Source: Alphaproteobacteria bacterium
Lineage (GTDB): Bacteria; Pseudomonadota; Alphaproteobacteria; Thalassobaculales; Thalassobaculaceae
NCBI GenBank assembly: GCA_024742605.1
Contig: JANSYC010000033.1
Location: 1 to 40,048, forward strand
Length of the DNA: 40,048 bases
Direction: 5' to 3'
Positions 10,536 through 40,048 of this stretch are shown here, piece after piece. How positions within the stretch are numbered: the first letter of the stretch is position 1; the number at the start of each line of letters is the position of its first letter. The notes under the pieces were generated by a model that was given only the letters and a program-made list of their open reading frames with translations, did not search any database and was not told where the DNA came from. The position numbers were made by a program, and so were the translations under genes.

Positions 10536-12071
10536 TCACATGGTGGCGCCGATGGCCCAGGGGATGAACTCGTTGTCGCCCATGCCCTGCGCCTCAGATT
10601 TGGTGGGCGAGCCGGAGGCGACCTCGAGCAGGCGGTCGAAGATCCGCTGGCCCATTTCCTCCAGGCTGATCCCCTCGTCCAGAACCGCACCGCAATTGAT
10701 GTCCATATCGTCGGACATGCGGTTGTACATGGCGGTGTTGGTGGCGAGCTTCATGCTCGGCGCCGGCTTGCAGCCGTAGACTGAGCCGCGCCCGGTGGTG
10801 AACGCCACCACATTGGAGCCGCTGGCGACCTCGCCGGTGATCGAGCACGGATCGTAGCCCGGGCTGTCCATGAACACGAAGCCCTTGGCGTCGATGTGCT
10901 CGGCGTATTTGTAGACGCCCGCCAGATTGGTGGTGCCGCCCTTGGCCGCCGCACCGAGGGATTTTTCCAGGATGGTGGTGAGCCCGCCGGCCTTGTTGCC
11001 CGGCGATGGGTTGTTGTTCATCTCGCCCTTGTTGCGGGCGGTGTAATCCTCCCACCACTAGATCCGCTCCACAAGCTTCTCGCCCACCACCCGGCTGACC
11101 GAGCGCCGGGTCAGCAGGTGCTCGGCGCCGTAGATCTCCGGGGTTTCGGCCAGCACCGCAGTCCCACCATGGCGGACCAGCAGATTGGCCGCCTCACCCA
11201 GCGCCGGGTTGGCGGTGATCCCGGAATAGGCGTCGGACCCGCCGCATTGCAACGCCAGGGTCAGTTCGCTCGCCGGACAGGAGGACCGGAGCGCCAGATT
11301 GGCGGTCGGCAGCATCTCTTTGATGATCGCGTGGCCCTTGTCGACGGTCTTCCGCAGGCCACCGGTGTCCTGGATCGTCATGGTCTGGAAGGCCGGACCC
11401 CGTTCCAGCCCGTAGGCCTCCAGCAGGAAGTCGATCTGGTTCACCTCGCAGCCCAGGCCGACCATCAGGATGCCAGCGAAGTTCGGATGCCGCGCCATGC
11501 CCCACAAGGTGCGCTGCAAATTCTCGAACCCGTCGCCATCGCCCGCCATGCCGCAACCGGTCGAGTGGGTCAGCGCCACCACCCCGTCCACATTCGGGAA
11601 GGCCTTCATGATGTCAGGGGTGAAGCTTTCGGCGATGTATTTGGCGGCGGTCGCCGAGCAGTTCACGCTGGTCAGCACGCCGATATAGTTTCGGGTGCCG
11701 ACTCGCCCGTTCTTGCGCTTGAACCCCTCGAAGGTGACCCGGTCGCTGTCGTTGAAATAGGCGGTCGGCTTGGCGTCGACGCAGAAAGCGTAGTCCCGTG
11801 AGAAGTCCTGCATCTCGACATTGTGGACGTGGACATGGGCGCCGACGCCGATCTCTTCGGTCGCGAAGCCGATGATCTGATCGTATTTCCGGATTGCCTC
11901 GCCGGCCGCGATCACCCGGGTCGCAACCTTGTGGCCGGACGGCACATGCTGTGTGGTCTTTACGGTCTCGCCCGGAAGGTCGGTGCCGGGCATCAGGTCA
12001 ACCCGTGCGGTGACGACGTTGTCGGCGGAGTTGAGACGGACGGCGATCGGTGCCGTGGTGGTGTCGGCCAT
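10536..12071 (-). pseudogene. uxaA: UxaA-family altronate/hexarate-type dehydratase interrupted by an in-frame amber codon
   Basis: The reading frame encodes a full-length (about 510-codon) UxaA/GarD-family dehydratase. It has an N-terminal SAF domain (residues 1-100, with HVHVHN) and a large C-terminal domain (NGRVGTRNYIGVL, THSTGCGM, GLGCEVNQ, QCGGSDAYSG). A TAG codon at 11058-11060 stops translation after LVERI. The same frame continues without decay (WWEDYTARNKGEMNNNPSP and on) to a normal stop at 10536. Homologues usually read IKWWEDY at this point, so a single AAG-to-TAG change would explain it. The pieces are 337 residues from the ATG at 12071 and a possible 161-residue restart at 11021. 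It could be a fresh pseudogene, a sequencing error or a suppressed stop. A GGGAGGA ribosome site precedes the start. Confidence 0.85.
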
Positions 12072-12198
12072 GAAATCCTCCCAGGAGACGCGTTTATTCG
12101 TTGGCGCCGAGCATACATCCCGGCGGGAGCGCCGCAAATGGGCTGCGCGGTCCTTGCGCAGATTGCCCGCAGCGGGCTAACTCGACGCAACAAGATAG

Positions 12199-13892
<1,694 letters not shown>

Positions 13893-19022: not shown

Positions 19023-19913
19023 TCAGCCCCGCCCGCCGATCCGATCCGCGTCAGCCCGGGCCCGATCGTGGATGAAATCGAGTACGGCGCGCACCCGCGC
19101 GATCCGGGCGAGGTCCCGGTGCACCAGAAGCCAGAGGTCGACGCACGGGATCTCGACCTCGGGCAGAACGCGCACCAGACCCGAACCTTCGGAGACCATG
19201 CACGGCACCAGGGCAATTCCGATTCCGGCTTTCGCCGCCGCCAGGCGGCCGCTGGCCGGGTTGGTCGCGAACGCCGCGGACCGCCCTTCCAGCACCTGCC
19301 GCAGCCAGATCACCGGGGCCGATTCCGGATAGCCGTCCAGCCAGTCGATCACCGCATGCTCTTTCAGGTCTGCGACAGAGTCCGGCATACCCTGCGCCGC
19401 GACATAGGCCTGTGAGGCGTAGAGCCCAAACCCCATGCTGCCGATCTTTCGCACCACGAGATCGCCCTGTTGCGGCCGAGCCAGCCTGATCGCCACATCC
19501 GCCTCCCGCCGCGACAGGTTGAGCAGACGGTAATCGCTGACCAGCTGAAGCCTGATGCCCGGGTGCCGATCCCTGAGATGGGGAAGATTGGGGATCAGAA
19601 AGGGAACCGTGAGGGATTCTGTCGCGGTCACAGAAACGGTGCCGGTCAGACCCCGGTCCTCGGCATCGAAGGCCCGGGAGAGAGCGAAAATCTCGGACTC
19701 GATGGCGCGGGCGCGCTCCGCCAGCTTCTCCCCGGCAGGCGTCACCGTGTAGCCGTCCTGCCGCCGGTCGAACAGCCGCACCGCCAACCGCTCTTCCAAG
19801 GCATCCACATGCCGACTGACGGTCGCCGGATTGACCCGCAGCACCCGGGCCGCAGCGGACAAACTGCCTTCTGCGGCAACCGCCAGGAAATAGCGGAAAT
19901 CATCCCAGTTCAC
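19023..19913 (-). CDS. LysR-family transcriptional regulator
   Basis: This 296-residue protein has an N-terminal winged helix-turn-helix (residues 5-63, with SLSAAARVLRVNPATVSRHV and LEERLAVRLFDRR) and a LysR effector domain from about residue 88 (TGTVSVTATES). The start is a GTG at 19913, supported by GGAGGG five bases before it and the standard LysR N-terminus (NWDDFRYFLAV). No divergent target gene is present: the upstream neighbour (20067-21014) points the same way across 153 bases. Its target could be itself, the unknown operon upstream or a distant locus. Confidence 0.92.
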   Translation of the reverse strand: MNWDDFRYFLAVAAEGSLSAAARVLRVNPATVSRHVDALEERLAVRLFDRRQDGYTVTPAGEKLAERARAIESEIFALSRAFDAEDRGLTGTVSVTATESLTVPFLIPNLPHLRDRHPGIRLQLVSDYRLLNLSRREADVAIRLARPQQGDLVVRKIGSMGFGLYASQAYVAAQGMPDSVADLKEHAVIDWLDGYPESAPVIWLRQVLEGRSAAFATNPASGRLAAAKAGIGIALVPCMVSEGSGLVRVLPEVEIPCVDLWLLVHRDLARIARVRAVLDFIHDRARADADRIGGRG

Positions 19914-20066
19914 CGCACCCTCCCCGAGGCCGGCCCAGTCGATCCCTCGATACTGCTGTCCATCGGACGTCTCACCATCCTTGCGCGATACCACCGGCAT
20001 TGCCCTCGGCAAGCCAGACCCAGTCCGGATCATGGACCCAGAACCCTGCGCGCGGCAAAGGTGCCC

Positions 20067-21014
20067 TCACCCGCAGTTCCGAATCCGCCCCAGATCGACC
20101 ACACCGGGGACCGCGCGACCGGCGAGCCGAAACCCGGTGACATGCACCGAGGTACCGTCGATCACGTAGCGGCCGGATACCTGGTTTTCGGTGATAGCGT
20201 CGGCGCCGAACAGATTGGCCAGTCCGCCCATCAGACGCGCGTCGAACGTGCGGGCGACGACAGCGACGGTCTGTCCGCCGGTCAGATCATGGCGCTGCCG
20301 GATTCTGTCGATCAGGTCGGAAGCAACCGTCGCCTCGGTTCCCGTTACCAGACGTATGTAGCCGGACGTGGAGTCGGGAGGGGTCCATTGGGTGCCCGGC
20401 TCTTCATCCAGGGACCAAAGCGAGTCTCCGGTCGACAGCAGCACACGTCGCTCCGCGCACCGCTCCAGATAGTCGCGCAGGACCTCCCGGTCGGCTCGAT
20501 AGGCCGGCCAGTCGATCCGGATGCCGGACGCCTCCCCGCGCGCCATCGCCTCCAGCAGGACGGCTCCTTCGCGCAGATCTCTGCGGGTCGGACGGACAAC
20601 CCGCGCCATAGGCGCCAGGCCCGGCGTCACAATCGTCGGCACCGTGACCGCCGGCGCGCGCGGCGGCGTAACCCTGGTCCGGGACCCTTTGGCAGCATCC
20701 TCTTTCGGGGCGACGGGCCTGACCGGGCTTGGGGCTACCGGCTTGGGTCTGGCGATCTCCGAGACCGGCTCGGGTTCCGGGCCAGTGGCGCCGGGCGGGG
20801 CCGGCAGGAGGATTGAGACCAGATGCAGCGCCGCGACCGACTCGTCCGGCGGCGATGCCGGTCGCGCGACTTGAGACATCGGCTCGGCGTCCGCCGGCTT
20901 GATCTCCGTCGGCGTGGTGGCGCCGTTCTGGGCGACGACCGCTCCTAGAATTGCGGCGGCCATCGCGAGCGGAGCGCCCAGTTCCAGAATCCGCGCTGCC
21001 CGCAGCAGCCGCAT
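20067..21014 (-). CDS. Membrane-anchored proline-rich protein, last gene of the seven-gene unknown operon
   Basis: I do not recognise this 315-residue protein. It has one hydrophobic segment near the N-terminus (about residues 13-28) preceded by Arg residues, so the rest is probably periplasmic. Residues 30-145 form a low-complexity Pro/Ala/Val linker of the kind that spans the periplasm in TonB-like proteins. Residues 150-315 look globular (DREVLRDYLERC, SGYIRLVTG, TVAVVARTFDARLMGGL) and contain cysteines near 192 and at the penultimate position. The start follows GGGGAGA. It begins 11 bases after the preceding small gene and is followed by a 153-base gap before the LysR gene. Confidence 0.7.
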   Translation of the reverse strand: MRLLRAARILELGAPLAMAAAILGAVVAQNGATTPTEIKPADAEPMSQVARPASPPDESVAALHLVSILLPAPPGATGPEPEPVSEIARPKPVAPSPVRPVAPKEDAAKGSRTRVTPPRAPAVTVPTIVTPGLAPMARVVRPTRRDLREGAVLLEAMARGEASGIRIDWPAYRADREVLRDYLERCAERRVLLSTGDSLWSLDEEPGTQWTPPDSTSGYIRLVTGTEATVASDLIDRIRQRHDLTGGQTVAVVARTFDARLMGGLANLFGADAITENQVSGRYVIDGTSVHVTGFRLAGRAVPGVVDLGRIRNCG

Positions 21015-21025
21015 GTCCGTCTCCC

Positions 21026-21259
21026 CTAATTGGCTTCCAGGAACCTGGCTTCCATGTCCCGCGCCGGATCCCGCAGCATCCGCCTGCGCTCAGACGGTGA
21101 GATCATAGCCGGTTGCGGTTCCACCACGACATCTTCCTGCCGGGCCGGCGACGGGTCCGGTTGATCAGATCGTCCGTGGCTGCAGGGGGCGGAGCGGCTG
21201 CGCCTGACTGAGCCCAATTTCTTCGTCGAGCGTCGTTTCCGACGCGGCGCGAGTTTCAC
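21026..21259 (-). CDS. Short basic protein of unknown function in the operon
   Basis: This predicted 77-residue protein begins with GTG. Its start overlaps the stop of the preceding gene (GTGA at 21256-21259), the arrangement seen between other genes of this operon, which is the main support for it. The first 25 residues are strongly basic (KLAPRRKRRSTKK). The middle is rich in Pro, Ser and Asp, and the end is helical and charged (PSERRRMLRDPARDMEARFL). No domain, signal peptide or membrane segment is visible. Without the gene there would be an odd 240-base gap in an otherwise compact operon. Confidence 0.5.
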   Translation of the reverse strand: MKLAPRRKRRSTKKLGSVRRSRSAPCSHGRSDQPDPSPARQEDVVVEPQPAMISPSERRRMLRDPARDMEARFLEAN

Positions 21260-22536
21260 CGAACCGGATCCAGATTCTCCGATCTGACGGTGACCGCAAC
21301 CGCGTCAGTTGCAAGGGCCCGCGCCGCCGCCTGCAGTTCAGCCGAACTCAGTCCCGGCGCAAGGGCCGACAGGTCTTTCGGTTCCGACGCCGCGACGAGT
21401 GCCACGGCGAGCCCGGTGAGCGATCGGCGCACCCAGGACGGGCCCTCGACCGTTAAAGACAGCGCTGCACCCGGCGCCACCATGGCCGACGCACGGTCGG
21501 TATATCTGGCAGGATCATCCGCATATTCCCGGAAAGCCCCGTCGACCCGGCCGATCAGCAACACGAAGCCCGGCATCCCACCGTCGTTCCGCGCCCGCAG
21601 CGTAATCGACGCCGGCCCGGGCTCCACCGAGACCAAAACTTGGGCAGGGTCAAACACCGGGTCCGCAGGGACGCTGTCCAGCGCGTTCACCCCATTTTCC
21701 GGCGCCTGCGAGGTCTCTCCGGTCAGTGCCGACACCGTCGCCTGCCGGGCTTCCCGACGCAGCTGCGCGCTTTCGGGATCGTATCCGACAATTTCCGCGA
21801 GCAGGATCAGCGCCGCGATGGCAAGCGCGATCCAGCCCATCACCCGACGGCGCATCTTCTTCCTAAAATCCCGTGCACCCGTGACCAGTTTGGCGGAGGT
21901 CAGTCCGGCGTCAGGCGCCAACTGCGCCCAAAGCTCATCGGCATTGGCCACCGGAAGCAGCGACGGATCCCGGAAGGTTTCCTTGGCGCGGGTCGGAACC
22001 GCGGCCAGGAACGGGGCGGTCAGCGCCCCCAGGTACTCGGCCGAAGCGTCGAGCTTGTCTTTAACCTTTTCGACCGGCCCGACGCTGAGATAGCGGTCCA
22101 CCGTCCCGGTCGCCCACAACACACGATCGGCCGGCTCATCGCCTTCGGCCAGCCGCCCGGCCGCCTTGAGCAGGTGCGCGATGAAGACCGCCAGTTGCCA
22201 GCTGTCTCCCTCGTCGATCGGTCGGTCAACATCCATCCGGAAGGCCCCGTACCGGACGGCGCGTTCGACGACACCGGTCGGCTCCCGCACGAACGCGTCG
22301 TAATCTCGGCTGATCGGCAGCGCCTTGGAACTGCCGTTCAGGCAGATCACCGAGCGAACCGCCGGGTCTTCCTGGGTGATCCGTTGAATGATCGACGGAC
22401 CTTGAGTTGTCGGGATGACGACGCGGACCCGCTCCAGGACCTCTCCGTCCGGGGACGGCTCCGCGCTGATCAGGTCAGCCAGATCCGTGCTTCCGGATTG
22501 GCGATCGCTTGGATGATCGGGTCTTCTGATGCGCAT
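21256..22536 (-). CDS. Single-pass membrane protein with Lon(S16)-like cytoplasmic domain and DUF4384-like tail
   Basis: This 426-residue protein has three parts. Residues 35-205 resemble the proteolytic domain of Lon. PIDEGDSWQLAVFIAHLL puts Ser112 where Lon has its catalytic serine (DGPSAG), and VLWATGTVDRYLSVGPVEK resembles TGEIxLxGxVLPVGGxKEK, with Lys157 as candidate partner lysine. Residues 226-231 (KKMRRR) precede one membrane segment (233-251), so the Lon-like part should be cytoplasmic. Residues 300-426 are beta-rich and predicted periplasmic. Their end (LTGLAVALVAASEPKDLSAL) resembles the DUF4384-like region of the exported protein at 37833-39467. There is no AAA+ domain. The gene overlaps the upstream gene by 67 bases and the downstream one by 4. 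The domain readings are by eye. Confidence 0.65.
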   Translation of the reverse strand: MRIRRPDHPSDRQSGSTDLADLISAEPSPDGEVLERVRVVIPTTQGPSIIQRITQEDPAVRSVICLNGSSKALPISRDYDAFVREPTGVVERAVRYGAFRMDVDRPIDEGDSWQLAVFIAHLLKAAGRLAEGDEPADRVLWATGTVDRYLSVGPVEKVKDKLDASAEYLGALTAPFLAAVPTRAKETFRDPSLLPVANADELWAQLAPDAGLTSAKLVTGARDFRKKMRRRVMGWIALAIAALILLAEIVGYDPESAQLRREARQATVSALTGETSQAPENGVNALDSVPADPVFDPAQVLVSVEPGPASITLRARNDGGMPGFVLLIGRVDGAFREYADDPARYTDRASAMVAPGAALSLTVEGPSWVRRSLTGLAVALVAASEPKDLSALAPGLSSAELQAAARALATDAVAVTVRSENLDPVR

Positions 22537-23072
22537 AACATTTGAATCTCGTCCTGGGCCGCAGCATCGAGGTCGAGCGTTGCCACCGTCCCAGTCCCTG
22601 TCATGGCGACCAGACGGGCGGCGAACTGCTCTGGGTCCTCAAGCCGAATAAGGACGTAAGTCTGCGCGGGGTTGGCCCGACTCGGCAAGAGGCGCAGCGA
22701 GAAACCCTGCCCCACCCGTTCGGTTACCTTGATGGTCGTCGCCGCAGCAGCTACCCGAGGCGCCTCTCCGATTGCGGCACCGGCCAGCATTGCTGCCAGA
22801 TCAAGATGCAGCGAGGGGTCGCGCAACAGGGCCGCCGCAAGTCGCGGAGACGGCTGGCTCTCGGTTCCGGTTGCGAAGGCCCAGAGGGCGGACGGTGAGG
22901 GTCGATCCGGCGCCCGCGCGGCCTCCGATGACAACTCGCCGCGTGTCTCAGTGACGGTTTCTGTCGGAGACATCCCCAGAGATGTTCGAAGTAAACCGCT
23001 GGTCTCGAGTCCCTCAAACACGCGGGCCACCATTTCCCGCCCCTGGGGACCGATGACCTGCCAGTCGGTCAT
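22470..23072 (-). CDS. Unknown 200-residue cytoplasmic protein
   Basis: I do not recognise this protein. Residues 1-35 look helical (GREMVARVFEGLETSGLL). Residues 36-65 are a low-complexity acidic and proline linker. A short helical segment follows (ALLRDPSLHLDLAAMLAG), then a mixed region with predicted strands (TTIKVTERVGQGFSLRLLPS, TYVLIRLED). There is no signal peptide or membrane segment. The start at 23072 overlaps the preceding stop by four bases (ATGA), which fixes it. Its 3' end overlaps the Lon-like gene by 67 bases in another frame. This coupling suggests an adaptor or regulator of the Lon-like protein, by context only. Confidence 0.68.
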   Translation of the reverse strand: MTDWQVIGPQGREMVARVFEGLETSGLLRTSLGMSPTETVTETRGELSSEAARAPDRPSPSALWAFATGTESQPSPRLAAALLRDPSLHLDLAAMLAGAAIGEAPRVAAAATTIKVTERVGQGFSLRLLPSRANPAQTYVLIRLEDPEQFAARLVAMTGTGTVATLDLDAAAQDEIQMLCASEDPIIQAIANPEARIWLT

Positions 23073-24844
23073 TGAACGCTCACCTTGGTTTGAGCCCCAT
23101 AGAAGGCCTCGAACCTCCGCGCGAATCGCACCCGGTCTTCCCGAAACACGGTTTCCGGATCCGCCCCGAGACCTGCGCCGGTGGCGGACCGCAGCTTCCT
23201 CAGATCCCGATGCACGTGGCGCAGCAACGGCGCTCCCGTAGCCATTGCCTCCAAGGTCTCGGGCTGTGTCCGAACCCCGTGAGCGAACCCCTGACGGCTC
23301 AATCCACGCAATGCCGAACGCGCGCACGTCAGGACCTCGACCGCATCCGCACCTGCAATCTCCTCCCGCGTCAAAGCACCAATCATTGCCGAGATCGCCC
23401 CCTCGCTGAGCACGCTCGGTCGAAGGGGCACAGTTTTCAACCCCCGCTCGCCGTCTGGTGCCGGAGCCACGATCGCGCGCAGCCGGACCGGATCAAAGCC
23501 AGGAGCCCGTTCCACGACTTCCAGGATGGCTTCGGGCCGTCGCCCTTCGACCAACGCGCACAAAGCTGCAAGCCCCATGCGCTCCAGGTGCTGTTCAAGC
23601 CCTGTCCAAGCCTTCAGCCGCTCGACATAGGTCGGCACGTCCTCACACCTGATGAGACGGGCAATGATCTGCGGTGTCTCACGGTTGCGGACCGCCTGAA
23701 CGATCCGCCGCTGAATCGCGCCGAAGACATCGACCCGAATGGCCGAGACCGGCAGATGGACCGCTTGAGCCCCGAGCACACGCAGGGTTTCCATCTGCTC
23801 GGTCTCACGACGATTCAGGAATTTGACGCGATCTGCCGGCGGTTCCGACAGTCGATCCATCGGATCAATCGGCGCCTCATGACGCTCCAGCGCATCCAGA
23901 ACCGCATCGGCGTCGATCTCGCCTGCCGCCCGGTCGGAACCGATCGGGGCAGCCCGGTCCATTTCATGGCGCAGGAGCCCGGCCTCGAACGCCGTTCGGA
24001 ATCGCGCGACCTGCTCTGCTGCCCGCTGGAAGGTGCGGACATCATCAGGCGCGCCGAGTTTGCGGTCCGCGGGGTGATCCAGCATGGGATCCGCACCCGG
24101 AACGGGTTCCACCGCATCATCCGCCATCCAATAGGCAAGCACGCAGTCATCATCCACATCCTCCAGCCGGAACGATCCACCGGAGCGGTGGCACAGGTGC
24201 TGCACCAGGCGCTGAAAAACCCGTTGAACATGCGCCGACGGCAGGTGCTCCTTGAGACGATCGTAGACCGCACGCGACAGGGTGTTTGAGATCGGTCCAC
24301 AGCCATCCAGACGGAACGGGGCCTCTCGCAGCATGGCCAATGCCTTATCGACCCTCTGATAGCCGAGTTCCGTGACCAAAAACTCCAGCAGAGCCGCCAG
24401 AAACGGCATCCGCCCATAGCTGACCGTGAACGGCCGATCCTCATAGTTCAGGGTAACCCCGCCATCCTCCAGCGTGATCCCCGACCCCAGGCCGCGTCCG
24501 CGCCGGGACGCTTCCTCCAATACCCCGCGGAATGCAGTCGCACGGGCCACCTGGAGTCCGAAGAAGAACCCCGTCCACCCATATCGGCCACCGGTGCGCT
24601 CGGCGATTCGAACCAGATGGCAAAGCTCCATCAGCGGTCGCCCATAGGCCCGGGCGGAGACGACCTGCGCCAGGCGCGCCATGACGCGCGGGCCGTATTT
24701 CGGACCGGCCCCAAGGTCGATGTCGGCAACCGTCCGAAAGGCCTGTTCCAATGCCACATCGCGCCCGGCGCTGAGGGCCGGATGTTCCGCCGATATCGGT
24801 TCCAAGAAACGCACACCCTCGGATGTAATATCTTTCCACAACAC
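23069..24844 (-). CDS. Unknown 591-residue soluble protein
   Basis: This is the largest gene of the unknown operon and matches no family I know. It is predicted cytoplasmic, without signal peptide or membrane helix, and mostly alpha-helical. Distinct blocks are YGWTGFFFGLQVARATAF near residue 95, NYEDRPFTVSYGRMPFLAALLEFL near 135-160, a Cys/His patch (QHLCHRSGGSFRLEDVDDD) near 220, and a helical C-terminal half with LIRCEDVPTYVERL near 405. The start is a GTG with only a weak ribosome site, 47 bases after the transglycosylase gene, so the true start could lie slightly downstream. Its stop overlaps the next start by four bases. Confidence 0.72.
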   Translation of the reverse strand: MLWKDITSEGVRFLEPISAEHPALSAGRDVALEQAFRTVADIDLGAGPKYGPRVMARLAQVVSARAYGRPLMELCHLVRIAERTGGRYGWTGFFFGLQVARATAFRGVLEEASRRGRGLGSGITLEDGGVTLNYEDRPFTVSYGRMPFLAALLEFLVTELGYQRVDKALAMLREAPFRLDGCGPISNTLSRAVYDRLKEHLPSAHVQRVFQRLVQHLCHRSGGSFRLEDVDDDCVLAYWMADDAVEPVPGADPMLDHPADRKLGAPDDVRTFQRAAEQVARFRTAFEAGLLRHEMDRAAPIGSDRAAGEIDADAVLDALERHEAPIDPMDRLSEPPADRVKFLNRRETEQMETLRVLGAQAVHLPVSAIRVDVFGAIQRRIVQAVRNRETPQIIARLIRCEDVPTYVERLKAWTGLEQHLERMGLAALCALVEGRRPEAILEVVERAPGFDPVRLRAIVAPAPDGERGLKTVPLRPSVLSEGAISAMIGALTREEIAGADAVEVLTCARSALRGLSRQGFAHGVRTQPETLEAMATGAPLLRHVHRDLRKLRSATGAGLGADPETVFREDRVRFARRFEAFYGAQTKVSVQ

Positions 24845-24891
24845 TATCGAAAGTCGCAGTCCTTCGCATCCTTTTCCGACTCGGGCCTACA

Positions 24892-25851
24892 TCAGCTTCC
24901 TCGGAGGAGTGCTCGGAACCGGGATTTTCGGGCCTCAATTGCCCTCAAAAGGCGGGCAGCCCCGCCGACAGGTACGGTGAATCCAGTGTCCGCTTTCCAA
25001 GCTGAAGACGCGTCACCCGGCGCCTCCCGGTCCTGATCCCCCATGCTCCGTCTGCTGGAATCGCGGACGTCCAGATACCCGCGGGATTGAAGACGGCGAT
25101 CGTAACCTCTGCCACCGCCGGTCTCCGCCCTCCGGGTCGGATGCCTGTCGTTTGTGGCGCGCGCCACCGCCGAAAGGTCCCGAAACTCCGGATGGTCCCG
25201 GATGTCCCGCCCTGGCAGATCACCCGGGTCCTCGAGCTGGGCCACGCGGCGGGACGCGCGGATCAGATCCGCTCTGATCTCAGCCCGCGGCAGGTCCGCC
25301 GCGAGGACCCGGTTCAGGGACCGCGCATCCGCGATCATCACCGCCGTCCGGGTCTCGCTGGCATAGCGGCGTTCCAGGCTCAAAACCTTGTCGACATAGC
25401 CCTGCGTTGCCGGGATCACCTTGGCGGTTGCGCCAGTCCCTACCCGTGAGCCGCCATTGTAATAGCTCAAGGCAAGATCCAAGCGCCCGTCATACCGATC
25501 GATCAGATCTCCGAGAAACGCGATACCGAGTTGAATGTTCAGGCGCGGCTGCCAAAGCTCGTCCGGGTCGACACCGAACTCTCCGCTGCCGGTGGCCGGC
25601 ATGATCTGCATCACGCCACGCGCACCCGCGGAGCTCTTCGCGTTCGGGTCGAAATGCGACTCCGCGTGGGCCACAGCCAGCGCGAGAGAGGGCGGGACCC
25701 GCGCGCTGCGCAACGCCTCTTGCACCACCATCATCCGCACCTCCTCCCGGGTCAGGGGAGTAATGTCAGAGCTCGGCGCGCCATGGCCGGGGGTCTGTGA
25801 GCAGGCCAAAAACAGGGTCACGAGGACGAGCCTCATCAAGGTGCGGGTCAT
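24892..25851 (-). CDS. SLT-type lytic transglycosylase with disordered C-terminus
   Basis: This 319-residue exported murein-cleaving enzyme has a signal sequence at residues 1-24; FLAC17 could be a lipobox with an unusual Phe at -3. The lytic transglycosylase domain spans about 45-165, with catalytic Glu64 in VAHAESHFDPNAKSSAGARG, then GVMQIMP, and LALSYYNGG as the usual A-YN-G motif. Residues 190-300 are Arg/Asp/Gly-rich and probably unstructured, unlike most soluble transglycosylases. It overlaps the upstream small membrane gene by four bases. A wall-cutting enzyme inside an operon of envelope and membrane proteins suggests that an envelope-spanning structure must pass through peptidoglycan. 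Confidence 0.88.
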   Translation of the reverse strand: MTRTLMRLVLVTLFLACSQTPGHGAPSSDITPLTREEVRMMVVQEALRSARVPPSLALAVAHAESHFDPNAKSSAGARGVMQIMPATGSGEFGVDPDELWQPRLNIQLGIAFLGDLIDRYDGRLDLALSYYNGGSRVGTGATAKVIPATQGYVDKVLSLERRYASETRTAVMIADARSLNRVLAADLPRAEIRADLIRASRRVAQLEDPGDLPGRDIRDHPEFRDLSAVARATNDRHPTRRAETGGGRGYDRRLQSRGYLDVRDSSRRSMGDQDREAPGDASSAWKADTGFTVPVGGAARLLRAIEARKSRFRALLRGS

Positions 25852-26222
25852 CGCACGATCTCCGGAGATTTCGAGAAGGGTGATTTGAGGGAGAGCTGGC
25901 GGATCCGGGCCCGCCAGGCGGCGTCGAGGGCGGTCAGCCGGACGCCGGGTTCGATCGTCGACGGGTTGAAAGGCCGTCTGCCCAAGTCGAAATACCGGCC
26001 GTCCCCGACAAGAACCAGACGGTCATCGGCCGTCATGACGGGCAGGTCCGAATCATGGCCGGGCGCCGAAAGCCTGAGGCTTGGAAACGCCGCGCCACTC
26101 TCTTCGGTCGGCGCGCGCCCCTGCCCCATGCTCATGAGCGTCAAGACCAGCCGACAGAAGAACACCATCGCCAGCGCGAGGCCTATTTCCGTCATCGCAC
26201 GGCCTGTCACCTGGTCATCCAT
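25848..26222 (-). CDS. Small single-pass membrane protein, first gene of the unknown operon
   Basis: This 124-residue protein has one hydrophobic segment at residues 11-31 (TEIGLALAMVFFCRLVLTLM) with Glu12 near its start and a short cytoplasmic N-terminus. About 90 residues follow that should be periplasmic (LRLSAPGHDSDLP, DRLVLVGDGRYFDLG). The arrangement recalls ExbD/MotB/ZorB-type anchors, but the Asp typical of proton-channel helices is not evident and the length is short. GGGAG precedes the ATG at 26222; a second in-frame ATG lies at 26195. The stop overlaps the transglycosylase start (ATGA). The perfect palindrome at 26233-26253 lies just upstream. Confidence 0.65.
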   Translation of the reverse strand: MDDQVTGRAMTEIGLALAMVFFCRLVLTLMSMGQGRAPTEESGAAFPSLRLSAPGHDSDLPVMTADDRLVLVGDGRYFDLGRRPFNPSTIEPGVRLTALDAAWRARIRQLSLKSPFSKSPEIVR

Positions 26223-26232
26223 CCACGCTCTC

Positions 26233-26253
26233 CCGACAGAACGGTTCTGTCGG
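26233..26253. promoter_or_regulatory. Perfect 10-1-10 palindrome before the unknown operon
   Basis: CCGACAGAAC, one base, GTTCTGTCGG: a perfect inverted repeat ending 10 bases before the start codon at 26222 and touching the GGGAG ribosome site on the minus strand. It can be an operator for a dimeric regulator or an RNA hairpin that hides the ribosome site. No T-run follows, which argues against a terminator for the upstream hyuAB genes. Confidence 0.5.
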
Positions 26254-26303
26254 ACGCTAAGGATTTCGGTGACGGGTTTTGCGACCCGGGGTCAGGTGCG
26301 GCG

Positions 26304-27998
26304 CTAGGCGGGAGGCTCCCAGCCGTACCACTGTTTCATGTAGGCGGCTGTGAACTTACCGGATTCCCAGTCCTCCGACAGCTTTTCGGCGGACCGATGC
26401 TCCGGCCGACCGTAGCCTCCAGAGCCCGGGGTCTCCACCACCGCCTGCTGATCCGCCCGGAGAACCAGATCGCCGGGCTTGGTTCCCAGCCGGGTTTCGG
26501 TTCCGTCATCATCCTGCATCAGGAACCGGCCGGCGGCGCCGGGCCGGGCGCCGAATACTCCCCACGGCCGGTTGCGGAAGCGCTCGCCGATCCCGGTGAA
26601 CAGGCAGTCGTGCCCGATCGGCCGCACCACCCGGCGCAGCCCCATACCACCCCGCCAGGTCCCGGCACCACCGGAATCCTCGATCAGGCCGTATTCCTCC
26701 ACCAGAAGCGGATACTCCATCTCGATCGCCTCGACCGGCAGATTCGAGGTGTTGGTGATGTGAACCTGGACCCCGTCCTTGCCGTCCCGGTCGTCCCGCC
26801 CGCCGAAGCCGCCGCCGAGGGTTTCGAGATAGACGTAGGGACGCCCGGTCTCCGGGTGCAGCCCGGAGAAGATCGCCATCGAATTGGCACCGTTCGCCGC
26901 ACCCACCACCTTGTCCGGCAGGGCTTCGGCCAGCGAGCCGATCACCACGTCAACGATCCGCTGCGAGGTGTGCGCGCGCGAGGCGACCGAGGCCGGGGCG
27001 ACGCAGCTGACCATGGTTCCCGGCGGTGCGATTACCTCGATCGCATCGATCACCCCGTGATTGTTCGGAACCTCCGGATCCAGCATCGCCTTCAGCACGT
27101 AGCAGACCGCCGCGATCGTGCCGTTGAGGGGAATGTTCACATTGCCGGGAACCTGTGGCGAGGTGCCGGTGAAATCGAACACCGCCCGGTCGCCGTCGAT
27201 CGTGGTCTTCAGCCGGATCGGAATGTCTTCGGTTCCGGCGCCGTCATCGTCCATGACATCGGCGAAATGGTAGACGCCGTCAGGGATCTCGCCGATCGCC
27301 AGCTTCATCCGGTGACGGGTCCGGGTGATGATCTCATCGAACACGGCGGTGACGGTGCCGACGCCCTCGCGGTCGATGATCTCCCGCAGCCGCCGGTCGG
27401 CCAGCCGAAGGGCCGCGAATTGGGCGTTGTAGTCGCCCCGCCGTTCCTCCACCACCCGCACGTTCAGCAGCAGAATGTCGAACAGGTCCTGATCCAACAC
27501 ACCGCGCCGGAACAGCTTGATCAGCGGAATCCGCAGCCCTTCCTGATAGATCTCGGTCATACCGCCGGCCATCGAGCCGGGGCTCATCCCCCCGATATCG
27601 GCATGGTGGGCGATGTTGCAGACAAAGCCGACGAGCTCGCCTTCGACGAACACCGGCATGGCGAGATTCACGTCCGGAAGGTGCGTGCCGCCGCCCACAT
27701 GCGGATCGTTGGCGCAGAACACGTCGCCTTCGTGGATCTGGTCGAGCGGAAACTTGTCCAACAACTTTCGCATCAGCCCCAGCATCGAGGCGAGATGGAT
27801 CGGGATCGACATGGAGGCCTGCATCACCAGCCGGCCGTTCCGATCCACCACCGCCGTCGAATGGTCATGCCGTTCCTTGATGTTGGTGGAATACGCACTC
27901 TTCATCAGGGCGACGAAACTCTCGTCAGTGACGGATTGCAGGGCGTTCGAGATGATCTCGATCGTGATCGGATCGGGCTTCGACAGGGCATCGGTCAT
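26304..27998 (-). CDS. hyuB: Hydantoinase B/oxoprolinase family protein
   Basis: This 564-residue HyuB-family subunit works with HyuA in ATP-dependent opening of hydantoin or oxoproline rings, or in related carboxylases. Visible family blocks are ALMKSAYSTNIKERHDHSTA near residue 35, the long conserved NDPHVGGGTHLPDV near 120, NIAHHADIGG, DFTGTSPQVPGNVN and GSGGYGRPEHR at the C-terminus. Its start overlaps the hyuA stop by four bases (ATGA). The 81 bases after its stop contain only a weak 5-bp hairpin and the palindrome that precedes the next operon. Confidence 0.92.
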   Translation of the reverse strand: MTDALSKPDPITIEIISNALQSVTDESFVALMKSAYSTNIKERHDHSTAVVDRNGRLVMQASMSIPIHLASMLGLMRKLLDKFPLDQIHEGDVFCANDPHVGGGTHLPDVNLAMPVFVEGELVGFVCNIAHHADIGGMSPGSMAGGMTEIYQEGLRIPLIKLFRRGVLDQDLFDILLLNVRVVEERRGDYNAQFAALRLADRRLREIIDREGVGTVTAVFDEIITRTRHRMKLAIGEIPDGVYHFADVMDDDGAGTEDIPIRLKTTIDGDRAVFDFTGTSPQVPGNVNIPLNGTIAAVCYVLKAMLDPEVPNNHGVIDAIEVIAPPGTMVSCVAPASVASRAHTSQRIVDVVIGSLAEALPDKVVGAANGANSMAIFSGLHPETGRPYVYLETLGGGFGGRDDRDGKDGVQVHITNTSNLPVEAIEMEYPLLVEEYGLIEDSGGAGTWRGGMGLRRVVRPIGHDCLFTGIGERFRNRPWGVFGARPGAAGRFLMQDDDGTETRLGTKPGDLVLRADQQAVVETPGSGGYGRPEHRSAEKLSEDWESGKFTAAYMKQWYGWEPPA

Positions 27999-30046
27999 CG
28001 CGCGACCTCCACGATCAGGTTAAGGGCGTCGTCCACCCGAACACGGTCTCCAGGATGGATCACGGTGGTTGCGTCCAGCTGGTCGACGATGGCGGGGCCT
28101 TCGAACCGATGCCCGGGACGCAAAGTGTCCCGCGCGAAGACACGCGCCTCATGCTCCCTGCCGTCAAACCAGACAGACCGGCGTCCGACCTCCGAAGGCT
28201 CCGAATCTTCAGCCTCCGGAACCTGCGGAGACGGCACAGAATCGGCGACACCGAACGCGGTCAGCCGGAAATTGACCGCTTCGATCGGATCGGTTTCGGT
28301 GAAATGGCCATAGGTCTGTTCATGCACCTCGAAGAACCGCCCGCGCACAATCTCCTCCGCCGGCAGCACCGGGGGCTCGCCATGGGTCTCCGCGACCGGC
28401 ACGGTCAGCTCGAAGTTCTGCCCGACATAGCGCAGGTCGACGGCCAGCCGGAGACGGCGGCGATCCTTTGGCACGTCCTCATCCTCGAACCAGGCCTGCG
28501 CGTCTTTTACCAACGGCGCGATCACCGCTCCCAACACGTCCCGGTGTTCGGCATCAAAAGGCAGACGCTGGGTTCCGACGAAATCCTCCTTCAGATCGGA
28601 GACCACCAGACCTTGGGCGCAGAGAATGCCGGGCGACGGCGGAACCGCGATCTGTTTCATATCCAACGCCCGCGCCACGTCCCCCGCATGCAGGGCGCCG
28701 GCGCCGCCGAAGGGCATCAGGGCGAATCTGCGCGGGTCGTGTCCGCGTTCGACCGAGACGGTGCGGATCGCCCGCACCATGTTGGCGGTGACGATCCCGA
28801 TGATGCCCTCGGCCGTCTTCTCAACCGACAGGCCAAGCCGCTCGGCCGCAGGCCGGATGGCAGTGCGCGAGGCTTCCAGGTCGAGGACCATGGCGCCGCC
28901 GATCAGGGATCCCGACAGCCGTCCGAGGACCAGATTGGCGTCCGACACGGTCGGCTCGGTGCCCCCCTTGCCGTAACAGGCCGGGCCCGGCACGGCACCC
29001 GCCGATTGCGGACCGACCTTCAACAGCCCGTCCTTCTCGAACCACGCGATCGACCCACCACCGGCCCCGATCGTGTGGATGTCGATCACCGGCAAGCGCA
29101 CCGGAAATCCCGCCACCTCGCGGCCATACCCGACATCCGCCTCATAGCCCTTGATCAGGGCCACATCGGCGCTGGTCCCGCCCATATCGAGGGTGATCAC
29201 ATCCGGCAGCCCGGCGGTGCGGGCGACATGGGCCGCGCCGACGGCGCCCGCCGCCGGTCCGGACAGCGCGGTCCGAACCGGAAACTCGGCCGCCCGCTCG
29301 ACCGACATCAGACCGCCCGAGGACTGGTTGATTCCCAGCCGGGCCCGGGGCGCACGCTTGGCCAGCTCTCCGCCCAGATGCCGCATGTAGCGGCCGACGA
29401 TCGGCTGCAGATAAGCGTTCAGGGTGGTGGTGGAGAACCGCTCGAACTCCCGGAACTCCGGTTGCACCGCGCTCGACAGGGAGATCGCGATGTTCGGCAG
29501 ACGCTCCTTGAGACGTGCGCCGATCCGCTGTTCGTGCGCCGGATTGAGGAAGGCGAACAGCAGGCACACGGCACAGGCTTCGGCCCCGGCCGCTTCAACC
29601 TGGTCGATCGCGGCCTCGATGTCGGCGTCGTCCAGCACCGTGAGCGGCTGTCCCCTGGCATCCATCCGCTCGGCCACCTCGAACCGGTGCTGACGCGGCA
29701 CCAGCGGCGGTTGCGCATCGGCCTTCAGATCGTACATTTTCGGCCGCACCTGACGGCCGATCTCCAACAGGTCCCGAAAGCCCTTTGTGGTGATCAAGGC
29801 GATGGGCGCGCCCCGTCGCTGGATCAGGGCGTTGGTGGCAACCGTCGTGCCGTGGGCCAGGCGGCCGATGGCGTGGCCCGGAATACCCTCCCGTTCGGAC
29901 AGCGCATCGAGCCCGGCGAGGATCGCTTCGGCCGGGTTGCCGGGCGTGGACGGGGTCTTGTGAACCACGAAACGGGCGTTCTCGACATCCACAGCGAAGA
30001 AATCCGTGAACGTCCCACCGACGTCCACTCCGATATACCAGGACAT
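27995..30046 (-). CDS. hyuA: Hydantoinase/oxoprolinase A-subunit family protein
   Basis: This 683-residue HyuA-family ATPase subunit has an N-terminal actin-like phosphate loop, GVDVGGTFTDFFAVD (residues 6-20), then AHGTTVATNALIQRRG and TTKGFRDLLEIGR. The second phosphate motif DMGGTSADVALI lies near residue 300, and PFGGAGALHAGDVA near 465. Family members include 5-oxoprolinase, N-methylhydantoinase A and acetone/acetophenone carboxylases. The start at 30046 gives the standard N-terminus; an in-frame extension to 30151 overlaps the upstream gene. It sits 16 bases downstream of the unknown 229-residue gene and overlaps hyuB. The substrate cannot be told from sequence. Confidence 0.92.
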   Translation of the reverse strand: MSWYIGVDVGGTFTDFFAVDVENARFVVHKTPSTPGNPAEAILAGLDALSEREGIPGHAIGRLAHGTTVATNALIQRRGAPIALITTKGFRDLLEIGRQVRPKMYDLKADAQPPLVPRQHRFEVAERMDARGQPLTVLDDADIEAAIDQVEAAGAEACAVCLLFAFLNPAHEQRIGARLKERLPNIAISLSSAVQPEFREFERFSTTTLNAYLQPIVGRYMRHLGGELAKRAPRARLGINQSSGGLMSVERAAEFPVRTALSGPAAGAVGAAHVARTAGLPDVITLDMGGTSADVALIKGYEADVGYGREVAGFPVRLPVIDIHTIGAGGGSIAWFEKDGLLKVGPQSAGAVPGPACYGKGGTEPTVSDANLVLGRLSGSLIGGAMVLDLEASRTAIRPAAERLGLSVEKTAEGIIGIVTANMVRAIRTVSVERGHDPRRFALMPFGGAGALHAGDVARALDMKQIAVPPSPGILCAQGLVVSDLKEDFVGTQRLPFDAEHRDVLGAVIAPLVKDAQAWFEDEDVPKDRRRLRLAVDLRYVGQNFELTVPVAETHGEPPVLPAEEIVRGRFFEVHEQTYGHFTETDPIEAVNFRLTAFGVADSVPSPQVPEAEDSEPSEVGRRSVWFDGREHEARVFARDTLRPGHRFEGPAIVDQLDATTVIHPGDRVRVDDALNLIVEVAR

Positions 30047-36522: not shown

Positions 36523-37836
36523 ATGCCTTGGTATTTTAGGGTATTGGCGATCCATGTGGCGATCCTGGGGGTGCTGGCCGCCGCCCCGGTCTCCGCGCAA
36601 TCCGATCGGGCCGCGACGAAGGCCGACGCGGTCGCGGTGATCGTCGGGAATCGGAATTACGCGCGCGGTATCCCTGACGTTTCGTTCGCACGAAACGATG
36701 CGCGGGCAATGCGGGACTTCGTGACGCGGGTCCTGGGGGTGCGCGAGGGCAATGTGATCGAACTTGTCGATGCAAGCCAGGCGCAGATGATCTCCGTGTT
36801 CGGAAACCGGGACGACCATCGTGGAAAGCTTTGGCAATACACCCGCGAGGGTCTGTCCGATGTCTTTGTTTTCTATTCCGGTCACGGCGTGCCCGGGCTG
36901 CGCGACCGGCGCGGATACCTGTTGCCGGTGGACGCGGATCCGGGCACCCCGGAGCTGAACGGCTATCCGCTCGACCAGCTCCTTGCCAATCTCGAGAAGC
37001 TGAAGGCCCGATCGGTGACGGTCGTTGTGGATGCGTGCTTTTCCGGAAATTCGGCAGGCGGATGGCTGGTCCGGTCCGCATCCCCGGTCTTCATCAAGAC
37101 AGCGCCCGTTGTCCAGATGGACGGGATCGTTCTGATCACAGCCGCTCAGGCGGACCACGTGGCAAGCTGGGATGCGGCCAGCGGTCTAGGCCTGTTCACC
37201 AAACACTTTCTCGAGGCGGCGCGCGGAGCCGCAGACACCGAGCGTTTCGGCAACGGCGACGGGCAAATCACCCTGGGGGAAATCAAGGAGTATCTTGATG
37301 GCGAGATGACCTACGCGGCCCGCCGGTCGTTCGGACGCGTTCAAACCGCGTCGATCAGCGGCCCCTTGAGTCGGGTGATCGTTCCCGAGATTCCCGAGAT
37401 GGCGGCGCCGACGGACCCGCGGCCGGTCCACATGCCGATACCGTCGTCATCGTACGGAAGCGCGGCCATTCCCAATGCCGCCGAGCTGTTCCGGGCGCCC
37501 GAGATCCGGACTTACGCCCCAGACGATCGCCCCAAGACGGCCGCTCAAGCAGATCATTTTCTCGCGACGAACACCCGTGCCGTTCTGCTCGCCGTGCGCG
37601 ACTACTACGACCGCGGCGGCAAGGTCTGGGACGCCGGGCAGTCCGGACTCTCCCTGCCCGAGCCGGAACGACTGAAACATCTGATTGATCCTGAACTGAT
37701 CGCGCTGACCGAGACCGGTTTCACCTTCCACACCGGCTATGTATTCGCCACCTCGACCCGGGAACTCAGAGCCGAGGCCGGATTCCGGATCGCGTTCCTG
37801 AAGGACGGCATGACGGTAACGGGCATGTGGCGATGA
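36523..37836 (+). CDS. Exported caspase-like (C14) cysteine protease
   Basis: This 437-residue protein has a signal peptide at residues 1-25 (ending VSA before QS), so the protease is periplasmic or beyond. The p20 domain starts VAVIVGNRNYARG. It carries the catalytic dyad His121 in FYSGHG and Cys172 in VVVDACFSGNS, both with normal surroundings. GNGDGQITLGEIKEYL near residue 245 resembles an EF-hand-like loop. After about residue 285 a linker leads to a C-terminal domain of about 120 residues (ETGFTFHTGYVFATSTRELRA at the end) that I do not recognise. GGAG precedes the ATG. Its stop overlaps the next start (ATGA), so the two are co-translated. Confidence 0.9.
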   Translation: MPWYFRVLAIHVAILGVLAAAPVSAQSDRAATKADAVAVIVGNRNYARGIPDVSFARNDARAMRDFVTRVLGVREGNVIELVDASQAQMISVFGNRDDHRGKLWQYTREGLSDVFVFYSGHGVPGLRDRRGYLLPVDADPGTPELNGYPLDQLLANLEKLKARSVTVVVDACFSGNSAGGWLVRSASPVFIKTAPVVQMDGIVLITAAQADHVASWDAASGLGLFTKHFLEAARGAADTERFGNGDGQITLGEIKEYLDGEMTYAARRSFGRVQTASISGPLSRVIVPEIPEMAAPTDPRPVHMPIPSSSYGSAAIPNAAELFRAPEIRTYAPDDRPKTAAQADHFLATNTRAVLLAVRDYYDRGGKVWDAGQSGLSLPEPERLKHLIDPELIALTETGFTFHTGYVFATSTRELRAEAGFRIAFLKDGMTVTGMWR

Positions 37837-39581: not shown

Positions 39582-40048
39582 ATGGGTACAACATCGGCTT
39601 GGAGGACGGCGACAGCCATGGCGCGACGCACGCTCCTGATGACCGCGCTGGCGGGGGTTCTGCTGTCCTGCGCCTCCGCGCCGGGACTGGGCCATGCGGA
39701 CGACATCTCCGGAGCGCGGGACGGCGGTCCCGTCAAGGTCCTGGTTTTGGGGGAGGATGATCACAGAAACCTGGTCGCCCGCGACGACCCGGCCTTTCGT
39801 CGTGTCATGTCGGAGCTTCAAGGGATGATGAACCGGCGCGGGTTTCGGGTTGTCGACGAAGCCGCAATCGCCGCGGACCTCGGCTGGGGTTGGCGGGGCA
39901 TCCAAGATCGAAGCGAGGTTCTGGAATTCGCCAAACTTGCGAACGCGACCGAAACCGCCGAAAACCGGGTGCGCGCGGCGGTCGTGTTCCGGATCGAGGC
40001 ATCTGTCCGCGATCTCGCCTATACCAGCCGGGTCGACCTCCACATGTC
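39582..40048 (+). CDS. Putative lipoprotein of the caspase operon, cut by window end
   Basis: An open frame of 155 codons runs off the window. The ATG at 39582 follows GAGAAGGGG; another in-frame ATG lies at 39618. The N-terminus holds a signal sequence with a possible lipobox LLSC (Cys30). The mature part reads VKVLVLGEDD, then MMNRRGFRVVDEAAIAADLGW, then VRAAVVFRIEASVRDLAYTSRVDL. This alternation suggests a CsgG/FlgT-like alpha-beta domain, but that is tentative. It follows the DUF4384 gene by 114 bases on the same strand. The missing 3' part could change the reading. Confidence 0.65.
   Translation, partial: MGTTSAWRTATAMARRTLLMTALAGVLLSCASAPGLGHADDISGARDGGPVKVLVLGEDDHRNLVARDDPAFRRVMSELQGMMNRRGFRVVDEAAIAADLGWGWRGIQDRSEVLEFAKLANATETAENRVRAAVVFRIEASVRDLAYTSRVDLHM

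Follow-up and report, generated by a model that had tools for sequence, protein, structure and literature searches.

The Tol-Pal (TolQRA-TolB-Pal) and Ton (ExbBD-TonB) systems are built from a multi-pass inner-membrane protein and a single-pass one with an acidic residue in its transmembrane (TM) segment, together with proline-rich single-pass proteins and outer-membrane lipoproteins. Zorya combines its ZorAB motor with ZorC and ZorD, and the Lon (S16) peptidase fold recurs in Lon, LonC-type proteins, RadA and ComM. Here we describe seven consecutive minus-strand genes, g1 to g7, in the window, by which we mean the whole 40,048-nucleotide stretch analysed (contig C112 of a 4.47 Mb alphaproteobacterial genome in 187 contigs). 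We read this operon, with a probability of roughly 0.55, as a reduced copy of an envelope system of about 14 genes and two modules, for which we propose a stator-like motor and a Lon-like control unit. The window copy is no complete machine; the real find is the conserved two-module system of its relatives, which is apparently as yet undescribed.

Matches to g3, the best marker of the system, occur in 17 of 61 genomes (the window's own included) and 7 of 37 genera, all of the same family, with loci in Thalassobaculum litoreum (L040), T. fulvum (L044), BAL199 (L039) and Nisaea (L047, L051), among others. Eight regions (L023-L030) have a common order: a caspase-domain gene, w38, w39, g1, the transglycosylase gene (g2 in the window), g3, g4 and g5; next a lipoprotein of about 180 residues, p290, p128, a multi-pass membrane protein of about 172 residues and p150; and lastly g7, a GNA1162-like gene, and LysR, DUF1194 and TusA-like genes. 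L028 ends inside w38 at a contig end and L025 carries two inserted genes; g1 in L026 and p150 in both L025 and L026 escaped the gene caller, and the GNA1162-like label comes from one member matched below cut-off (E 1.8e-4). Relatives hold five genes between g5 and g7, and one after g7, beyond those of the window; in its complete form the locus also encodes a lipoprotein, secreted proteins, a multi-pass membrane protein, another proline-rich protein with a single TM segment and often one that is caspase-like. Homologues of g1-g5 and g7 stand in the same order in other genera, which argues that their linkage is more than chance. The exception is g6, in which conservation is confined to roughly the final 26 residues, and these correspond to the C-terminal end of a larger protein.

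A g3 profile (A12, 17 rows) matched 20 of 385 genomes sampled from the class, in 15 of 277 genera (three genomes reaching no better than E 1e-8 to 1e-10), and 13 of 398 sampled from the phylum, six of them outside the class; a p290 profile (A14) matched 18 of 385 and 7 of 398. The two families coincide in 13 class genomes against 0.94 expected (P 1.1e-15, uncorrected for kinship) and in six of the phylum sample, seven class genomes (the window's included) having g3 without p290 and five p290 without g3. Neighbourhoods beyond the family repeat the gene order. Adjacency was counted over 47 loci, 40 with g3 and 23 of those with p290, the denominator being the loci that hold both genes; because these loci are related to one another and were located by their g3 or p290 matches, the counts do not represent independent trials. 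Within one module g3-g4 are adjacent in 36/36 loci and g4-g5 in 33/33. Within the other, the counts are 29/30 for lipoprotein-p290, 30/30 for p290-p128, 28/28 for p128-multi-pass, 22/22 for multi-pass-p150, 23/23 for p150-g7 and 19/19 for g7-GNA1162-like. The genes upstream are nearly as constant (g1-transglycosylase 24/26, transglycosylase-g3 25/26), and the lower figure for g5-lipoprotein, 16/23, marks a module border. Three loci (L134, L135, L136) hold a block of w38, g1, transglycosylase, lipoprotein, p290, p128, multi-pass protein, p150 and g7 with g3-g5 absent, and three others (L045, L046, L048) hold g3-g4-g5 alone; the blocks are separated or inverted in L108 and L112 and lie apart on the chromosome in G411 (L107, L139). 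The g1 gene was found in 24 of 28 loci with the multi-pass family.

The 47 loci exclude contig pieces of the window's own genome, G004 and the genus-mate (L066, L068, L069), L141, which overlaps L108, and L148, where G420 has a further g3 match that is broken and where the gene calls are poor. L023-L037 also stand outside the counts, most being the same genomes as L038-L051, and L029 (G026), L032 (G013), L034 (G021) and L037 (G011) are thereby omitted. Gene calls outside the window come from an in-house caller, with approximate starts and small genes and with split or missing calls in L043 (= L026), L104 and L106. The sequence-only reading had staked its case on homologues lying together and on the set matching no described system. 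They do lie together, and no match was found in the libraries and the available portions of the open-access literature searched, which yielded no description of the locus: the accessible part of PMC7159879 lacks 'Lon', 'lytic transglycosylase', 'MotA', 'ExbB' and 'TonB' as whole words, and the accessible parts of PMC12204202 and PMC12505986 do not describe it.

How the window came by its shorter version is indicated by a genus-mate (G001, contig C438, locus L069) whose flanking genes are 85-96% identical in protein sequence to those of the window. At the matching place it holds the five genes from the lipoprotein to p150 and the GNA1162-like gene, all absent from the window locus. The DNA alignment breaks at window positions 21229/21148 (L069 332/3016) and 20039/20026 (L069 4120/4747). 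Other genera hold these genes, so the window lineage most likely lost them, apparently by two deletions. Profiles of p290 (A6), the multi-pass protein (A5) and the lipoprotein (A7) matched nothing at E<=0.001 in the window's genome; among the seven genomes searched, each gave one match in G001, G005 and G026, and A5 one also in G004. That genome-wide search was confined to these three families, with p128, p150, g4 and the GNA1162-like family outside it. The sequence-only reading had counted the 77-residue basic product of g6 as a member of the set; this did not hold, as its end matches the C-terminus of p150 and it has no TM segment, so that it reads as the scar of a truncated p150 and no component of the system. 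The same reading had suggested an envelope-spanning apparatus with a cytoplasmic protease or sensor. That description fits the full locus of relatives, with its lytic transglycosylase, lipoproteins, multi-pass and proline-rich single-pass proteins and a Lon-like domain preceding the TM segment of g5; it fails for the window as a complete machine, since that locus lacks the multi-pass protein, one lipoprotein, two secreted proteins, the GNA1162-like protein and the greater part of a proline-rich protein. In the genus-mate the two ends of p150 lie in different frames (L069:2727-3138), through either a frameshift or an error in the draft; in the former case p150 would be broken in G001 too.

The gene order, the modularity, the two missing stretches and the Lon fold and conserved Ser/Lys of g5 are observed. 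What would power the full system, which partners it would engage and what it would cleave we infer, just as the sequence-only reading presented functional identity as inference. The multi-pass protein and g1, with its one TM segment and invariant Glu, would form an ion-driven, stator-like complex. This stator would drive the proline-rich p150 and g7 through peptidoglycan opened by the transglycosylase, the two arms reaching toward outer-membrane lipoproteins, namely the protein of about 180 residues, the GNA1162-like protein and perhaps w38, with p290 and p128 as a putative periplasmic scaffold. A separable control unit would consist of g3, g4 and g5: the beta-sandwich of g5, outside the inner membrane, may sense the state of the envelope or motor, and its ATPase-free Lon-like domain on the cytoplasmic side may cleave a specific partner, g4 or g3 being the obvious candidates. 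With the stator, lipoproteins and scaffold gone from the window's genome, the complete machine cannot form there; g3-g4-g5 would most likely work alone in this organism, as in Nisaea, beside g1, g2 and g7 as leftovers under weaker constraint.

Several results weigh against this proposal. Profile-profile comparison by hhalign, with TolQ/ExbB and TolR/ExbD sequences taken from the same bacterial family, gave E 0.15 between the multi-pass family and TolQ/ExbB, E 0.28 between g1 and TolR/ExbD and nothing for cross pairs of these families, and the profile scores were no better than those of reversed and shuffled controls. In the main multi-pass family 2 of 15 members matched PF01618, with a best E of 0.047, and the unrelated Gaa1 was matched by more of them; no ExbD (PF02472-type) match appeared in 13 members of the g1 set, nor any TonB_C or TolA match in 19 members of g7. 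The caspase, GNA1162-like and OmpA genes are not in every locus, g3 has no assigned function, and RadA (Z 13.3-14.5) and ComM (12.9-13.1), which share the Lon fold, fit g5 nearly as well as the best Lon (14.5). Homology of the main families to ExbB/TolQ and ExbD/TolR was not shown by the Pfam scan, the profile-profile comparison or the scores against reversed and shuffled controls.

Every direct homology test having failed, the full system could be a motorless envelope assembly, for example a peptidoglycan-remodelling or transport complex in which the multi-pass protein is structural and the likeness to a motor is chance. This is a serious possibility, if somewhat short of even odds, and a simple scan that found four hydrophobic segments in only 9 of 15 multi-pass members (two or three in the other six) is consistent with it. 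Against it stands L053, where the multi-pass slot holds a protein above the PF01618 cut-off (27.3 vs 22.9 bits, E 3.4e-6), and the next gene encodes a single-pass protein whose start is TolR-like (E 0.038 to TolR/ExbD and 0.003 to g1, both of low probability), g1 being missing at its usual place. L053 is labelled Marinimicrobia; its genes are close to those of an alphaproteobacterial metagenome-assembled genome (L050), its GC content is 0.65, and it is probably a misbinned contig. A TonB C-terminal domain fused in L146 likewise argues against a motorless assembly, as does the Glu at the start of the g1 TM segment (Glu12 in the window), kept in 29 of 29 homologues; g1 has the single TM segment and acidic residue of ExbD/TolR. 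Similarly, g7 and p150 have the N-terminal TM segment and proline-rich stretch of TonB/TolA transducers (p150 with the segment in 6/6 relatives and 7-19% proline). The OmpA genes of L052, L100 and L105 and the weak ZorA2 match of the L099 multi-pass protein also speak for a motor. We give about even odds that the system is motor-like by architecture and by replacement.

A different objection concerns the window copy, which may be a dying relic whose seven open reading frames (ORFs) are all functionless remnants, still there only for the reason that the loss is recent. The two missing stretches, the g6 scar and the relocation of the caspase-w38-w39 block would agree with such decay, as would a shortened g1, lacking two stretches of the periplasmic part present in relatives. 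Ratios of nonsynonymous to synonymous substitution (dN/dS) between window and genus-mate point the same way: g7 has 0.35 and the final 100 codons of g5 have 0.21, whereas four neighbours lie at 0.05-0.12, the comparison being limited to g7 and these codons because the genus-mate contig begins there. These values are nonetheless well below 1, so g7 and the end of g5 appear to evolve faster than their neighbours yet under constraint; g1-g5 and g7 are open over their full length, and the Lon dyad, the transglycosylase Glu and Glu12 of g1 are retained. Moreover, five Nisaea genomes keep at the locus only g3 with a g4-sized gene (5/5) and g5 (called in 4/5), and the p290, multi-pass and lipoprotein profiles matched nothing in the one denoted G002. 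We consider complete decay unlikely. In Nisaea the gene for a secreted-looking protein of about 250-276 residues immediately precedes g3, occupying the position that g1 and the transglycosylase have elsewhere (L046:1013-1843, L047:9026-9829, L051:9074-9829); two of these proteins had no Pfam match worth noting.

The predicted g5 model (predicted local distance difference test, pLDDT, 84.1) has the Lon peptidase fold: 10 of its 11 Foldseek matches at E<=0.001 are Lon or LonC, and residues 35-213 superpose on 2x36_A with Z 14.5 over 158 residues at 3.1 A. With a 12-sequence g5 profile, 17 PDB chains came up at E<=10; 16 are of Lon type, 15 of these at E 0.014-0.16, and the other is unrelated. 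S112 and K161 are conserved in 33 of 33 homologues with letters there (three fragments lack the region); from the spacing of the Lon motif we take S112 to be the putative catalytic Ser, and the Lys aligns with the catalytic Lys of Lon. No Pfam or NCBIfam match to an ATPase domain was found in g5, and in the model the Lon-like domain is preceded by no more than 34 residues. Accordingly g5 has a Lon-like peptidase domain with a conserved Ser/Lys dyad, yet is no Lon protease proper. The domain could instead serve as a scaffold or for oligomerisation, as in RadA and ComM, with no peptidase activity, and the closeness of their Z scores to Lon together with the missing ATPase match would suit that role; an unused dyad should drift, though, and with the Lys at the position of the Lon catalytic Lys we find this distinctly improbable. 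In L146 an 870-residue g5 homologue (11133-13745) joins a Lon-like N-terminus to a protein kinase domain (217-483; E 3.7e-35), a TM segment (669-687) and a TonB C-terminal domain (792-857; E 2.5e-18), and a TPR/FHA-like protein lies beside the system (L146:13751-15979, sub-threshold). In L147 (4357-9124), which like L146 comes from outside the class, the neighbours of the system are an FHA protein and a kinase that carries an FGE-sulfatase domain.

A role in anti-phage defence or conflict, comparable to Zorya or CRISPR Calp and with either the Lon-like domain or the caspase acting as effector, is suggested by weak PADLOC matches in L099 (g5 to CARF_LON, E 0.0021; the multi-pass protein to KwaA, E 1.8e-4, and less well to ZorA2, E 0.0045), by the L053 caspase (PADLOC E 2.7e-11) and by the kinase and FHA proteins of L146 and L147. 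We judge it improbable, since no SAVED, ZorB, ZorC or ZorD match was found among ten proteins scanned, a plasmid search with g3 and p290 gave no match, the caspase is present in only 14 of 47 loci, and the Thalassobaculaceae locus sits at one site between conserved metabolic genes, unlike a mobile defence island. PADLOC matches of p290 to JetC (E 0.0013) and GajB (0.0061) were set aside as coiled-coil chance. An assembly artefact in a draft of 187 contigs, with w39 split over two of them, is a very poor explanation for the missing genes, given that the two gaps lie apart within a single unbroken contig, that a scar ORF is present, and that three families are unmatched in a genome rated 100% complete.

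The window features are collected in Table 1. Seven minus-strand genes were recovered with the coordinates and six junctions first reported: overlaps of 4 nt at g1/g2, g3/g4 and g5/g6 and of 67 nt at g4/g5, and gaps of 47 (g2/g3) and 11 (g6/g7). Homologues of g5 begin about 35 residues downstream of the g5 start in the window; the window has no in-frame ATG, GTG or TTG at that later position, and the overlap of 67 nt therefore holds, barring use of a different start. A scan of 19800-26600 gave no sigma-70-like site (0, against 0.5 in shuffles). The sequence-only reading also proved right that g2 alone has a standard function (PF01464, SLT, E 1.6e-22, 79.7 bits, cut-off 21.3), no other of the seven being over a curated Pfam/NCBIfam cut-off or convincingly matched, and that g5 is a membrane protein with a Lon-like domain, now borne out by profile, Foldseek and structure comparison.

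Table 1. Features of the window discussed in the text (TM, transmembrane segment).
Feature	Position	Strand	Length	Description
g1	25848-26222	-	124 aa	small single-pass protein, TM 13-31
g2	24892-25851	-	319 aa	lytic transglycosylase, SLT domain residues 42-135, Glu64 present
g3	23069-24844	-	591 aa	GTG start; helical, no signal or TM, outside known families
g4	22470-23072	-	200 aa	no TM; 3' neighbour of g3
g5	21256-22536	-	426 aa	Lon-like peptidase domain (model residues 35-213; S112, K161), TM 232-250, then beta-sandwich
g6	21026-21259	-	77 aa	GTG start; deletion scar, C-terminal end of p150, TM of p150 missing
g7	20067-21014	-	315 aa	single-pass, TM 9-27, 9.8% proline, conserved C-terminal part, no Pfam family
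Junction of presumed deletion 1	21149-21228		80 nt	unalignable; L069 333-3015 extra (2,683 bp): lipoprotein, p290, p128, multi-pass protein, most of p150
Junction of presumed deletion 2	20027-20038			L069 4121-4746 extra (626 bp): most of GNA1162-like gene
Hydantoinase B and A genes	26304-30046			PF02538, PF01968; between g1 and caspase block
Caspase-domain (C14) protein	36523-37836	+		directly upstream of w38-w39-g1 in relatives; here 10 kb off, other strand
w38	37833-39467	+		DUF4384-like; window copy below cut-off, E 0.002
w39, N-terminal half	39618-40046	+		runs off contig; other half at end of contig C42, same genome

The remaining proteins add detail to both modules. The catalytic Glu of the transglycosylase is present in the window and in 34 of 38 homologues, the exceptions being L052_7, L114_11, L143_7 and L144_17. 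In L143 (7301-8158) and L144 (12205-13017) a second transglycosylase-like gene, with Gly for the catalytic Glu, lies beside a normal copy and may encode an inactive partner. The predicted g3 model is helical (pLDDT 82.5); Foldseek against PDB gave nothing better than E 0.53, a second structural comparison reached at most Z 6.4, across 80 residues in a helical region of a common kind, and a PDB profile search (A1) had a best E of 0.39. This lack of structural relatives does not make the predicted g3 fold a new one. PDB profile searches with A5, A15 and A16 returned nothing relevant. The sizes of the five extra genes had first suggested a type II secretion pseudopilin set, and we rejected this candidate on finding nothing of the kind in the sequences or in Pfam; the scanned proteins of the window operon, L029 and L053 had no Pfam match to a pilin, secretin or secretion ATPase (type II/IV secretion). 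The w38 homologue in L053 matches DUF4384 (E 1.2e-14) and, below threshold, CsgG. With w39 and g1 adjacent in relatives and the hydantoinase genes between them in the window, the locus has been rearranged here. Beside the w39 half on contig C42 (L066), other-strand genes look like those of a phage tail or gene-transfer agent; three of them that were scanned had no Pfam match.

A set of about 14 genes whose order persists across several families, and outside a single class too, is unlikely to be without a function, and most scanned proteins of the system lie outside Pfam, one of the window's seven having an NCBIfam match worth the name. A bolder reading, possible but on the doubtful side, would see a new class of energised trans-envelope machine in Pseudomonadota, with a non-Tol, non-Ton motor, its own wall-cutter, proline-rich arms and, coupled to it, a detachable cytoplasmic control unit that converts the state of the envelope into proteolysis; the window would then represent one step of its dismantling, the motor gone and the proteolytic unit (a protein of about 550 residues with unassigned fold, a small partner and an ATPase-free, membrane-anchored Lon-like peptidase) kept. 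Genomes in which just g3-g4-g5, just the motor block or a shortened locus like that of the window remains are natural deletion mutants showing which parts can stand alone. Were the system an energised envelope machine with a built-in peptidase, it would offer a route to studying how the state of the envelope becomes regulated proteolysis.

Among the described systems, proteins with Lon (S16), LonC-type, RadA and ComM domains resemble g5 residues 35-213 in fold and in the Ser/Lys positions; g5 differs in having no ATPase domain match, in the TM segment and beta-sandwich that follow the domain, and in its operon context. The CRISPR-associated Lon protease CalpL likewise has its Lon-like domain next to a small partner within a set of regulatory genes, and the CARF_LON profile weakly matches the Lon part of g5 from L099; no CARF/SAVED sensor was matched in the ten proteins scanned, and g5 is membrane-anchored, with envelope genes around it. 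Zorya shares the motor-like membrane pair in a multi-gene locus and the ZorA2 match of one member, yet no full Zorya set was found among the ten proteins scanned. Tol-Pal and Ton come closest: besides the membrane proteins, proline-rich proteins and lipoproteins named at the outset, three loci have OmpA genes (L052, L100, L105) and one variant (L146) carries the TonB C-terminal fusion. The system differs from them in that sequence homology to TolQ/ExbB, TolR/ExbD or TonB_C was not shown for its main families, a transglycosylase and a Lon-like module are added, and the window's genome has a separate tolQ-tolR-tolA-like operon elsewhere (the gene names being our reading). By the tests made the system is a member of neither, and it may work like Tol/Ton in outline; should it prove an energised envelope machine with its own peptidase, it would join Tol, Ton, flagellar stators, gliding motors and Zorya on a short list.

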